DNA of 23,363 nucleotides. It comes from a virus. Position 1 is the stretch's first letter; the number at the start of each line of letters is the position of its first letter. Below, in pieces: positions 2,268 to 20,465 of the stretch. Below the pieces are notes generated by a model. That model searched no databases, was not told the DNA's origin, and was given only the letters and a program-made list of their open reading frames with translations. Position numbers and translations under genes: made by a program. The stretch covers positions 1 to 23,363 of the IMG/VR virus record IMGVR_UViG_3300012928_000045, one strand, 5' to 3'.

Positions 2268-3236
2268 ATGGCAACTTCAAACCCAATTACGTTTGACAAC
2301 GTTTCTGCTTCTGGCGGTCTTGTCGGAAATTTACGACTTGAAGCAATGATCTCCCAAGAGATCAACCTACTTTTAAAAGATACAGCAAACCTAAGAAATA
2401 CTGCTCTTCTTAGCTATCAAGGCAGCATTAACGGCACTGGATCAGATACCGTTCGTGTACGTCTCGCCGGTTTAGATGGTTTTGATTCAATGGCAGCAGC
2501 GACATCAGAAAATCATGATCACTCTTCTGATACAACAGCGTTGACAGTGCAAACAGCCGATCTTGTCGCGGCTCGTCAATACATCATTTATGAGATTGAC
2601 GATCTTGCTTCAATGACTGGATTTGGCGGATCTGATATCGATCCCTTCCGTCTTGCACAAAGCATTGCAGGAAGCTATGAAACACGCTTTGCAGAACTAA
2701 CCGGATCAGCAGCCGCATCTTTGACTGCAACAGCCGGCGCAAATACCACAACTCTATCCGTGGACGATTTCTTTGATGCTATCTTTTCTCTTGAACAAGC
2801 AGCGTCAGGGGCAGGTGCTCCGGGTCCATACGCGGTGGTTTTAGCTCCCAAGGCATTGACAGAGCTGCAAGACTCTCTTCGCAATGAGACCGGGAACGCA
2901 ATAAGCCGCATGCAATCATCTATGGACATGTTGCAAGCCAAGGGTGAAAACTTTGTAGGTAATTTATTTGGCGTTGACGTATATCGAAGTAAGCATGTTA
3001 ACGAAAACCTTTCTGCCGGATTTGACAACTATATGATTTCGCCTGGCTGTATCGGATATGTTGACGGTATTCCCGTCGGTGTACGCGGTTCTGCTGATCT
3101 TATGTCTATGGGCAAAATTGTTTGTGAATTTGACCGTCGTCCTATGTCAAGCAGCACATTTATAGTGGGTCATGGGTACGTGGGACTTGGACTGATCAAT
3201 GCAGACAAGGGCGTCAAGCTTCTTTCAAAACGATAG
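2268..3236 (+). CDS. Major capsid protein (HK97-type fold, inferred)
   Basis: 322 residues from ATG 2268, chosen because GGAGG (2258-2262) sits five bases before it; the in-frame ATG at 2256 has no ribosome site. The protein has the composition and layout of a siphovirus major capsid protein: a short N-terminus without an obvious cleaved delta domain, and a C-terminal half with segments such as GPYAVVLAPKALTEL, NLFGVDVYRSKHV and MISPGCIGYV, then a basic end (VKLLSKR). It would form the icosahedral shell. It has its own promoter and is followed at once by a strong hairpin terminator, which fits high expression of this gene alone. No scaffold or maturation protease gene lies just upstream. Confidence 0.85.
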   Translation: MATSNPITFDNVSASGGLVGNLRLEAMISQEINLLLKDTANLRNTALLSYQGSINGTGSDTVRVRLAGLDGFDSMAAATSENHDHSSDTTALTVQTADLVAARQYIIYEIDDLASMTGFGGSDIDPFRLAQSIAGSYETRFAELTGSAAASLTATAGANTTTLSVDDFFDAIFSLEQAASGAGAPGPYAVVLAPKALTELQDSLRNETGNAISRMQSSMDMLQAKGENFVGNLFGVDVYRSKHVNENLSAGFDNYMISPGCIGYVDGIPVGVRGSADLMSMGKIVCEFDRRPMSSSTFIVGHGYVGLGLINADKGVKLLSKR

Positions 3237-3245
3237 ATTCGCTTT

Positions 3246-3310
3246 GTTGGGAGACTTCAGAGTTTTAAATTCTGTAGTCTCCAAACTCTGCGAGTCTCCC
3301 AACTCTTTTT
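3246..3310 (+). terminator. Large hairpin terminator with loop complementary to the next ribosome-binding site
   Basis: Outer stem GTTGGGAGACT (3246-3256) with AGTCTCCCAAC (3293-3303); inner stem CAGAGTTT (3258-3265) with AAACTCTG (3283-3290); then TCTTTTT (3304-3310). This is a strong intrinsic-terminator shape. The 17-base loop contains TGTAGTCTCC (3273-3282), complementary to GGAGACTACA (3315-3324), the Shine-Dalgarno of the next gene; with flanking bases the match is 12 nt. Pairing would form a pseudoknot hiding that ribosome site. Confidence 0.85.
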
Positions 3311-3324
3311 AATTGGAGACTACA

Positions 3325-3984
3325 ATGGACTACACAAATTTTTCCCAGCCATGGGAAGAGAAAACGCAAAATCAAACGCGTATACCAAAAAAGGCAAACA
3401 GTCGTTTTATTTTTGCACATAACCCTGAAAATTGGCAATTAAAAGTGTTTGACACGTACACGACTAATACAGACGGCAAAAAGAAAAAGGAAAAAATTCC
3501 TTTGCTTCTTCCGGTATTGTCAAGTATTCCAGAGACTCCCGGAGTAAATGGAACAAGAGCAGTAGGAGGACGAATCGATTCTTCTATTATGCGCACAAAT
3601 TTACAAGATCAAGGTTGGACACTGCTAGATCCAACAAAACACGATTATATGCGCGTGTATCCTGCACACAGGGGTAACTATCACACATCAAAATGGATTC
3701 GCCTTGAAAAAGTCGGACGACGAGTAATAGAGCACTTTGATCAGGACGCCTTTGATCAATGGCGATTATCTCTTATGAGAGACGGTATCTTAAATCATCC
3801 TCATCCACAAATAGCATCTTTGAAGCTGATCGGGATGAATAGAGCTCTAAGCAGACTGGAAAGGGACCAGCACATACCAGAGGTGGCGAACAGACTTAAA
3901 TCAAAACAAGAAGAGCTGCGTCTTACAAAAAAAGCAATCAAACGAGTCGAAGATCTTGGGGCTGGAGCATACAATGTCCGATAG
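3325..3984 (+). CDS. Unknown phage protein after the capsid gene
   Basis: 219 residues from ATG 3325, six bases after GGAG (3315-3318); an in-frame TTG at 3313 also exists but would place the ribosome site inside the gene. I do not recognise the family. The N-terminal half is basic and polar (KKKKEK stretch near residue 50); the C-terminal half looks helical, with LSRLERDQ and a charged run around ELRLTKKAIKRVED. Its place between capsid and joining genes suggests a head-related or accessory role, without direct evidence. Its translation may be controlled by the upstream hairpin. Its end overlaps the next small gene by 11 bases. Confidence 0.75.
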   Translation: MDYTNFSQPWEEKTQNQTRIPKKANSRFIFAHNPENWQLKVFDTYTTNTDGKKKKEKIPLLLPVLSSIPETPGVNGTRAVGGRIDSSIMRTNLQDQGWTLLDPTKHDYMRVYPAHRGNYHTSKWIRLEKVGRRVIEHFDQDAFDQWRLSLMRDGILNHPHPQIASLKLIGMNRALSRLERDQHIPEVANRLKSKQEELRLTKKAIKRVEDLGAGAYNVR

Positions 3985-6153: not shown

Positions 6154-6171
6154 ACAAAATCGGGAGACTAC

Positions 6172-6549
6172 ATGAAAATCAATATAAAAAAATTGGGAGG
6201 AGAGATTAATCTCTCAACTCCTAGTTTGGCAACATGTTTCGAATTTGTGTCGCTATGGTCTGCCGAGACAGACAATGCTATGCTTGCTCGTCTTTGCGCT
6301 GGTTCAATTGGAGTATGCATTGATCACGCTGCAAAATTACCAAAATATAGACCTAATAAGCATCGTGCTTCTCAGTATGGTCATTTGTGCCTTGATCGTC
6401 TTCTTGGAGAGGGAGTAACGGCTTCTGTGATTTATGAAGAAGGAATAAAATGCCTTTCTTTTATGAGCACAAAAATACCGACAGAGGCAGAGGTCGACGA
6501 AAGAGCAAATTTTTCCTCTACTCAAAAGCCGGACATCTCGACAGATTAG
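6172..6549 (+). CDS. Tail assembly chaperone, short form (gpG-like)
   Basis: 125 residues, ribosome site GGGAG before the ATG at 6172. Small, mixed-charge protein between tail tube and tape measure, where lambda G lies. It does not itself resemble lambda G by motif; the assignment comes from position and from the overlapping -1 frame that begins at a canonical slip site. Such chaperones bind the tape measure and tail tube subunits during assembly and are absent from the finished virion. This short form is the expected major product. Confidence 0.75.
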   Translation: MKINIKKLGGEINLSTPSLATCFEFVSLWSAETDNAMLARLCAGSIGVCIDHAAKLPKYRPNKHRASQYGHLCLDRLLGEGVTASVIYEEGIKCLSFMSTKIPTEAEVDERANFSSTQKPDISTD

Positions 6550-9379: not shown

Positions 9380-12300
9380 TGGGTAATAACGTAACACCGG
9401 ACTATTTAAGAGGCTTCCTTGTTCCGCTTGCATTAGATCAAAATAATGTGTGGAATGATCAAAGTAATTTTACCACAGCAGAAGAACGCGCAGGTGATCC
9501 AATACCGCAACAAAATACACCTATGCAATTAATTGCTAAGGGCAGACAAAGCGGTGCATCAGATTTAACAATACGTACACAAAGCGCAGGTTTCGCCGGT
9601 GATGGGGCTGGTTTTATATTTCGCGATAATCAAACAAATGTATTTTATGGTAGAGATGCACAAAATAGTCTTTCTAGATTTCAGTATCTACGATTCTCAA
9701 CATCATCGTCGAGTCAATATTTGCATCCGTCTGCATTGGATACTGGAGATGGTGATTTGTTAGTCTCTTATTTTCACGACTTGAATTCAGGTAGATTTTT
9801 AAAAATTGATACCATCAAGCAGGATGATACACAAACCCCAGTCATTGTTTACGAAGAACCAGTAACAAATACGGGTTACGATATTTTGTCTGATATGTGT
9901 ATATTGCCGGACGGTAGATATTTACTATGTCTGTTGTCTGGAGATGCGACCAGCGTCAATATAAAATCATTTGTCAGTGATGATGGGGCTACATGGTCCA
10001 TTAGATCAAATAGAGCAATTCGTGACGAAATTTTAATAGGAACCACAACAGGAGCCGGTAACGATACACACAAACCGGTCAAATTAAGAATTGAACAATC
10101 TAATAGTGTCATTTTGCTTTTGTTGGAAACACGCTGGAATAACACAAATGATACGAAAAGAAATAGAGTAATCCAATATGCGAGTACTGATCTAGGCGCG
10201 TCATTTCGATTAATCACTACAGAGACAGAAATTTCTCAACATTCTTTTCATTCGATAGATTTGTATGCAGACAAAGGACTTTTTAGATTTGCCTTTTATG
10301 GTGACAGAAGTCCGACATATATGTCCTTACCTTCTGCATTTACTTCTGTTCATTCAATGCGCTCCGCTGGTGCATTTGTTTTGGTAGATGGTACGATTAG
10401 GTGTGATGGTAATGATAATTTTATGTCGAATGGAGAACTTACTGCATTTACTGACGAGGGCGCAAGTCATCACATTATAGCCAGAGCATCAAATTTAAAT
10501 GCAGCTGATTACAGAATCTATTGGAGTCAAGATGCTATATCGTGGCGCAATATGGGACGAGACATAAACGGAGCAGGTCGATGTATACGGACAGGAGATG
10601 CAGATTCGAGCGTAGAAAAAATCAAAGCTGTCACTTGGACAGGGAAAACTATTTTAGTGGGTGAGGCTGATGCAACCGCAGCAAATTTTAGTTTATGCAT
10701 GCTTTCTCTTGGTGGTTACACATCTGTTACACTGCCAGCAGCAACCAGAGAAAATGCAGATTTCGCAGAATGGAATAGATTATCATTTGCTTTTAATTAT
10801 CCTGCTGTCGATGTTTTTTCAAATTTTACAAATGTATCAAAAACAGCAGTAGGCGGTGGCGAAGCGTTATCTTCAAACGGCGTAGTAAATTCTGGTAATG
10901 AATTCTGGACTACCAACCCGTCAATTCTTGGCATGCCAACAGCAGACATAATCGACAAAGGGCTCATTGTCAGTGCTCAATTTAATAATATGACAGGAGG
11001 AAATAATACAACTAGTAATCGAGGCATATTACTACGCGTAGACAATGGGACAAATGATTTCGAAGTCGAGGTTAGGGTTACACAAACACAAATTGTTGTA
11101 AGAGACAATAATGCAAGTTCAAATGTCATTACAATCGGATCATTATCGTTAGACGATGTTGATATTTTGGTTGGTTTGTCAAGAGAAAAAGTCACGTTGT
11201 TTTTTCGTAATAATAATCCTGTCAGCAACAAAAGAACATGGATAAACGGCGGTACATTCACAAGTCTTACTGATGGCGGCGGTTCATCTGCATCTCAAAG
11301 AATCAGATGGGGTCATTTGGCTTATTCAGGAGTTGGTATACTGCGCACAACTTGGAGTAATATTTCTTTTGCTCAAGGTTTTCAAATATCTAACCAGATA
11401 CATGATTTTACGAATCCAGATGATTTGATGTTCCGATCATATCCAACCTTGGATCGGTTTGCATGGGTAGCAGACAATGTACTCATATCTAGTGCAAACG
11501 GGCAGACTTTTTTAAATGATGAATATAGAATAACCCCAGATTCAAACTTTACGATAAACAATGTGTTGTATGATAATTCACCAACACCAAGAGTAATGTA
11601 CAAAAGTCAAAATGTGACATCTGGTAATGTTCCCGAGACCTTCATCGCTTTTAAATTAGATGACAATCTAAGTGTTCACATTGATGAAAACATGCCAAAT
11701 GATATTTTGGGCGTACATATATCGAATTACAATTTTATACATGCAAAAATAGAATATTATAGTTCTGCTGCGTGGTCTGTGCTTGATTCTTTCGATTCAG
11801 CAATAGAGAGTAAATGTACAGCAGACGGAAGATCAATAAGAGGTCATTCATCTGCTACAAACCAACCATATTTCAAATTTAATGAATGTGCAGGTTGGCG
11901 AGTAAAAATACAAGTTGGGGCAGAAGATTTTGTATGGCGTACCGTAATCAGTAATTCAGAAGGCGTATTTGGCGGCACAGCAACAACAACAAAACAGGCG
12001 GTTCTGTTGTTAGATGCCTCAGTGACTATATCCGCAACAAGTGGCATAATTTATTTGGTGCCGAACAACATGACTCTTCTTATCAATCTTAATGGTTTAA
12101 AATTTGAGGGTTTGGCTTTGCGCATACCGTCACAAACAACGCTCGAAAATGATATTCGAATTGGTCTGTTACATATTGGAGCAGTTGTCATTCCTGGAAA
12201 ACAATATCAAAGAGGGAGAACTATATCAATTTCATCTGGTACTGAAACCACAGAGACACAATCAGGCGTTATTTATGCGCGGAATTATCACCCTTCACGG

Positions 12301-20431: not shown

Positions 20432-20465
20432 GTTTACATGATGCAAACAAACAGGAGACAACATC

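Follow-up and report, generated by a model that had tools for sequence, protein, structure and literature searches.

Conserved complementarity points to a probable two-state antisense hairpin at the end of a phage capsid message

RNAIII of Staphylococcus aureus carries C-rich loops in two hairpins of its 3' domain (hairpins 13 and 7) that pair with the ribosome sites of spa, SA1000, rot and coa, and this pairing blocks initiation, with cleavage by RNase III (PMC2837412). Phages also encode antisense RNAs: c4 of phages P1 and P7 and sar of P22 act on translation initiation of a phage gene, and the complementary stretches of c4 are thought to be located in loops (PMC12197685). An sRNA can also derive from the end of a message, as in the case of CisR, which comes from the prtV 3' UTR and inhibits a phage mRNA (PMC13250501).

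Here we describe a hairpin at the end of a capsid mRNA that, by sequence, resembles RNAIII hairpin 13 in setting one loop against several ribosome sites. There is no sequence relation between the two. RNAIII is a bacterial quorum-sensing RNA, whereas the phage element ends a structural mRNA, has genes of its own phage as putative targets, and has a conserved second fold containing an internal mimic of those targets. The likeness to c4 RNA lies in an antisense segment near a phage ribosome site. However, c4 and sar are directed at a single target, the antirepressor, in lysogeny control, whereas the capsid hairpin, at the 3' end of its mRNA, matches several genes for virion assembly. Comparison of the hairpin region with Rfam returned no family at gathering score, c4 included, and only sub-threshold eukaryotic miRNA and snoRNA models. 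Bacterial sRNAs derived from 3' UTRs are a further likeness, being regulatory RNAs from mRNA 3' ends that pair with other mRNAs; the capsid element lies in a 3' UTR, and its complementarity to the ribosome sites of several targets is conserved. It differs from CisR in that here the phage would regulate itself, with the seed in a terminator loop. Transcription attenuators form mutually exclusive hairpins, one of which is a terminator. The capsid element likewise has two conserved exclusive folds, one of them a terminator, but one of its strands is antisense to distant ribosome sites, and no leader peptide or ligand is known. By kind, the element would be an antisense RNA at ribosome sites; we found no description in the open-access literature of a capsid-mRNA 3' hairpin directed at the assembly genes of its own phage. 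Based on the sequence comparisons below, we consider it probable that the terminal hairpin of the capsid mRNA is a two-state antisense element restraining a set of morphogenesis genes.

The window, that is, the whole stretch of DNA analysed, is a 23,363-base record of an uncultured virus and starts inside a fibre-like gene. The locus of interest is the gap between the capsid gene and the next gene, and the relevant features are as follows.

1519 to 1548, + strand: terminator after the fibre-like gene, dividing the upstream targets from the capsid transcript
2152 to 2178, + strand: predicted promoter-like sequence before the capsid gene, TTGCAC-N15-TATACT, from consensus
2268 to 3236, + strand: major capsid protein gene (open reading frame, MATSNPITF..., stop codon TAG at 3234 to 3236)
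3236 to 3242, + strand: P0, GATTCGC, right where the capsid reading frame ends; partner of C' in the loop-hiding fold
3246 to 3265, + strand: A, the 5' arm, made up of GTTGGGAGACT (3246 to 3256), a single t, and the inner CAGAGTTT (3258 to 3265)
3270 to 3282, + strand: B, the antisense segment TTCTGTAGTCTCC, in the apical loop of the terminator fold
3283 to 3290, + strand: inner 3' strand AAACTCTG, which forms the inner stem with CAGAGTTT
3290 to 3296, + strand: C', GCGAGTC, the partner of P0
3293 to 3303, + strand: C, the outer 3' arm AGTCTCCCAAC of the terminator, which pairs with GTTGGGAGACT
3304 to 3310, + strand: T-rich tract of the terminator, TCTTTTT
3313 to 3324, + strand: D, TTGGAGACTACA, covering the Shine-Dalgarno and spacer that precede the next gene and complementary to B without mismatch over 12 nt
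3325 to 3984, + strand: next gene, target 1 (open reading frame, 219 aa), head-tail adaptor-like by position only
6163 to 6172, + strand: GGAGACTACA, ribosome site of the chaperone gene; complement of B over 10 nt
6172 to 6549, + strand: chaperone-position gene, target 2 (open reading frame), tail assembly chaperone by position

Genes were named from their position and from weak homology; the capsid was assigned from an initial annotation of the window and from the order of the genes (terL, portal, scaffold-like, capsid, tube, tape measure). The capsid gene has 54 relatives in viral contigs. The capsid, adaptor, tube and chaperone proteins matched no Pfam or PHROGs family, and the tape measure has PHROGs support. 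The chaperone-position gene sits between the tube-like gene, which it follows directly, and the tape measure downstream; this position is conserved. In the relatives examined, a terminator-like hairpin stays in place behind the fibre-like gene, ahead of the capsid region, with complete turnover of its sequence, and alignment of capsid-gene upstream regions showed the promoter-like sequence to be conserved in the window's group. We also observed a small hairpin in the capsid 5' UTR at 2197 to 2223 (GGGTACGGTCGCGCCGGTAACAGCAGA), with a stem of approximately CGGT/ACCG around CGC followed by AACAGCAGA. This hairpin was recognisable in all lineages aligned, including those with capsids about 50% identical, and L068 and L185 carry a compensated version (GGTTCGCAACC); it is possibly a 5' stability or protein-binding element.

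The initial annotation had proposed that the loop of the capsid-gene terminator can hide the ribosome site of the next gene. The arms, inner stem and TCTTTTT that it describes are all present, as an A:C stem followed directly by the T-rich tract as in an intrinsic terminator, and the element begins at the capsid stop codon. The loop bases TGTAGTCTCC (3273 to 3282) are, as claimed, exactly complementary to GGAGACTACA at 3315 to 3324, and the match extends to the 12 nt of D. The second copy of GGAGACTACA, before the chaperone gene, is also present, although one base upstream of the reported 6164 to 6173; its final A also opens the chaperone ATG. With at most one mismatch, GGAGACTACA occurs at 11 sites in the window compared with 0.8 expected, a count reached in 0 of 100 shuffles. 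Among ATG starts of open reading frames over 60 aa in the window, the best loop partners were the next gene (-19.8 kcal/mol) and the chaperone gene (-18.8 kcal/mol), with the third at -13.2 kcal/mol. Three early-gene sites (GGAGACAACA) were rejected as targets, each having one mismatch to the loop and a pairing energy of only -13.2 kcal/mol. Three small early-region genes (at 20454, 20708 and 20869) have a common leader, acaGGAGACAACATCATG, which is a near copy of the late motif and pairs with the loop at -13.2 kcal/mol with one mismatch.

We searched viral contigs with the capsid and portal proteins and obtained 63 distinct records in which the 3' region of the capsid could be read, plus deeper lineages. 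A tblastn search for isolates among 50,697 phage records gave no match to the capsid or portal proteins, terL gave matches there at approximately 25% identity only, and no capsid relative was found in bacterial and archaeal genomes. Group 1, to which the window belongs, contains 51 of the 63 records; its loop carries TAGTCTCC (TAGTCTTC in L130), and the ribosome site of the next gene reads GGAGACTACA or the close variant GGAGACAACA. Group 2 contains the other 12, at approximately 55% capsid identity, with GTCGGTTC in the loop, GGATACCGACA or similar at the ribosome site, and a second complement of the loop, D1, directly after the T-tract. Loop and next-gene ribosome site were complementary in all readable close relatives, and in group 2 with an unrelated motif.

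Start regions were located by homology rather than by complementarity. In both groups the loop matched the starts of the terS-like gene (the first late gene), the scaffold-like gene (after the portal gene), the post-capsid gene and the chaperone gene after the tube gene, and in group 2 that of an MTase-like gene as well. The four target ribosome sites paired with the loop of their own group at mean energies of approximately -16 to -22 kcal/mol, compared with -7 to -11 kcal/mol for the loop of the other group. The remaining genes had no comparable gap in both groups; the MTase-like gene had one in group 2, and smaller gaps were found in group 1 for terL (-12.7 vs -9.2 kcal/mol) and g143 (-13.6 vs -10.7 kcal/mol). 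In relatives, the terS-like and scaffold-like genes lie upstream of the point at which the window starts, as does a further match, site E. The loop thus has matches in genes 3-10 kb off, upstream of the conserved terminator and the capsid promoter-like sequence, an arrangement that favours action in trans.

Site E is located approximately 45-50 nt before the fibre-like gene and can form a duplex of as many as 15 nt with the loop; neither E nor D1 of group 2 is a ribosome site. The initial annotation had named an absence of covariation between loop and ribosome site as evidence against its reading. Within group 1 we looked for such covariation and saw none, but the B:D pair is invariant in 19 sequences there and so speaks neither for nor against it; such constancy would suit a segment on which more than one partner acts as a constraint, though it does not amount to covariation. 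The loop does covary with E inside the same group (permutation p = 5e-5 over 16 clusters), with five pairs changed on both sides and a score reached in 0 of 500 shuffles; examples are L130 (loop CTTCGG, E CCGAAG), L131 and L097. Covariation of loop and ribosome site was found across lineages, as described below. In many relatives, L120, L119 and L131 among them, we also observed a short palindrome after E (ACACGTGT, AAACATGTTT or ATGCAT).

Deeper lineages, with portal proteins 37-62% identical, have a different motif in the same arrangement. Outside the window's lineage, wholesale replacement of the motif has given GGAACCGACA and, among the deeper lineages, GGAGACCCAC (L154, L156, L160, L162 and L191), GGAGGC (L150 and L186), GAGGAGC (L185) or GGAGAGCAC (L196), and loop and ribosome sites change together. 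We compared native with chimeric pairing across up to 15 deep lineages; the probe was the whole intergenic region, with no prior selection, and lineages were permuted. Native pairing was stronger for scaffold (n = 10), adaptor (n = 15) and chaperone (n = 11) at p = 5e-5 each, values that express association rather than a count of independent events since the permutations treat related lineages as exchangeable. For terS the p-value was 0.08 with five lineages, and g255, a non-target, gave p = 0.015; the difference was not significant for capsid, portal, terL, tube, TMP, g143 and g103b.

Starts were also ranked within single lineages, with antisense 16-mers picked after inspecting the sequences: the best 4 of 49 starts in L191 were chaperone, scaffold, terS and adaptor; the best 3 of 31 in L185 were adaptor, chaperone and scaffold; the best 3 of 58 in L160 were scaffold, adaptor and chaperone in some order; and the best 2 of 34 in L196 (portal 37% identical) were adaptor and the chaperone-position gene. 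The fit was weaker in L150 and L186, where the common motif is only six bases and some non-target starts score equally. In such lineages too, the predicted folds have a long hairpin with the antisense at its tip or close by. A search of L151 gave no convincing antisense, and L205, an outgroup, has no fitting antisense after its capsid gene, though its targets have one common ribosome site. We noted in L205 an identical, self-complementary ribosome site (ATCGGAGAGCCCCGATG) at 11429, 13228 and 16354, at least two of which belong to the adaptor and chaperone genes.

The 110-nt hairpin region folds at -34.9 kcal/mol (z = -4.9 relative to shuffles), and the minimum-energy fold is not the terminator but an alternative that hides the loop sequence. 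Group 1 has two mutually exclusive sets of conserved helices, as in a two-state attenuator: in one, A:C forms the terminator and B is exposed in the loop; in the other, A pairs with B and P0 with C'. Their predicted energies are within approximately 7 kcal/mol of each other, with the loop-hiding fold more often favoured. Both folds covary. Native pairing exceeded chimeric pairing for A:C (-26.2 vs -18.8 kcal/mol), P0:C (-11.4 vs -7.1 kcal/mol) and A:B, each at p = 5e-5, whereas the control pairings P0:B (p = 0.051) and B:C did not covary in group 1. In P0:C', 5 of 7 pairs have changed on both sides. A gapless strand alignment of P0:C' and A:B contained 93.3% standard pairs and 32 cells changed on both sides compared with 9.1 in shuffles, and A:B and A:C were supported in group 2 too. 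The T-tract is not universal in the lineage: it is weak or absent in L040, L041 and L043, and L191 and L160 have no comparable T-run directly 3' of the antisense arm. Segment A, which can pair with C or with B, resembles the target sites and looks like a weaker, wobble-rich copy of them. Wobbles occupy 40 of 209 cells in A:B, compared with 1 of 190 in B:D and 2 of 180 in B:E, and because they abound in A:B and are rare between B and its targets, the match under selection in B appears to be that to the targets rather than to A. Taken together, the sequences show that the loop is complementary to ribosome sites, that this complementarity is specific to these genes and is replaced jointly from lineage to lineage, and that both folds covary.

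Because the loop sequence has been replaced many times while the match was kept, the most likely explanation is that the capsid message doubles as an antisense switch for partner genes. In the terminator state, transcription would end after the capsid gene and the apical loop would display B. B could then base-pair with the region from Shine-Dalgarno to start of the terS-like, scaffold-like, post-capsid and tail chaperone genes, and in the second lineage also of the MTase-like gene, blocking their translation. In the other state, A would hide B and P0 would hold C'. The terS and scaffold genes would be reached in trans, because a terminator and a promoter-like sequence lie between them and the capsid gene; if the fibre-gene terminator and the capsid promoter both work, terS, scaffold and E would be reachable in trans only. 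The next gene could also be reached in cis on read-through RNA. We infer pairing in the cell, repression, trans action and purpose from these patterns. Phages need hundreds of capsid proteins and few terminases, adaptors and chaperones, and the purpose may be that an abundant capsid message holds down proteins needed in fewer copies. That capsid protein is thereby kept high and partner proteins low, as the initial annotation suggested, is a reasonable guess.

Other readings account for part of these data. The initial annotation favoured a pseudoknot formed in cis on read-through RNA that would close only the post-capsid gene. A 12-nt complement approximately 31 nt downstream of the loop is well placed for this, as is D1 just after the T-tract of group 2. 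The motif is also present at the terS, scaffold and chaperone ribosome sites, however, where it tracks the replacement of the loop, and we regard a pseudoknot private to one gene as quite unlikely. What stands of the earlier proposal is a loop antisense to the next-gene and chaperone ribosome sites, conserved lineage-wide with the paired sequences replaced; the matches to distant ribosome sites turn it into a putative multi-target antisense regulon. The direction of action could also be reversed: ribosome sites, E and D1 would act on the hairpin, as sponges or as RNAs that it senses, and what is regulated would be termination downstream of the capsid gene. Little energy separates the terminator from the loop-hiding fold, a target that captured B would leave A available to pair with C, and E and D1 match B best yet are not ribosome sites. 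Against this, lineage after lineage has its pairing exactly on the Shine-Dalgarno and start of the same genes, and a good T-tract is missing in some lineages, so that we hold this reversal to be unlikely.

A motif common to several ribosome sites is a typical mark of translational repressors, and A resembles the target motif; a phage RNA-binding protein might read the motif, in which case the hairpin would be its decoy or a site of autoregulation, and B no more than the strand that faces A. This is difficult to reconcile with a B that fits the targets better than A (wobbles in 3 of 370 cells compared with 40 of 209) and changes when E changes, and with unrelated motifs in at least five lineages, each of which would require a new protein specificity; we give it little credence. 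An ordinary intrinsic terminator also has a stem and T-tract, and its C-rich arm could resemble an anti-Shine-Dalgarno by chance, as CUCC complements any GGAG. Chance, though, does not account for matches of 10-15 nt that are conserved and co-replaced, and most non-targets whose sites contain GGAG do not favour their own loop; the chimera tests refute this explanation at the sequence level, and we consider it hardly credible. The inverted copies that flank large parts of the late region might instead serve a role in DNA, as sites of inversion, packaging or replication. The copies coincide with ribosome sites and all face the same way with respect to the gene, and wobble pairs and the apical-loop placement suggest RNA, making a role in DNA extremely improbable.

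The preferred reading, an antisense switch carried by the capsid message, does not explain E and D1 as plain translational repression, because neither is a ribosome site. A more speculative version, which we find possible but doubtful, is a target-sensing terminator. Free scaffold, terS, adaptor and chaperone ribosome sites, or E, would capture B on the nascent capsid transcript and release A to form the terminator, silencing the targets in the same act, and RNA-RNA stoichiometry would set both read-through and partner translation. In this version, the lineage would have exchanged its pairing code on at least five occasions. If target sensing is true, virion parts would be balanced without a protein regulator.

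If the antisense switch itself is correct, this lineage would have an RNA solution in which the most abundant structural mRNA carries an antisense that restrains the others. The repeated joint replacement of a loop and three to four distant ribosome sites would make it a rare antisense regulon that can be read from sequence alone. The natural sets of loops and ribosome sites would be orthogonal, and the regulon may offer a route to similar circuits in other uncultured phages.
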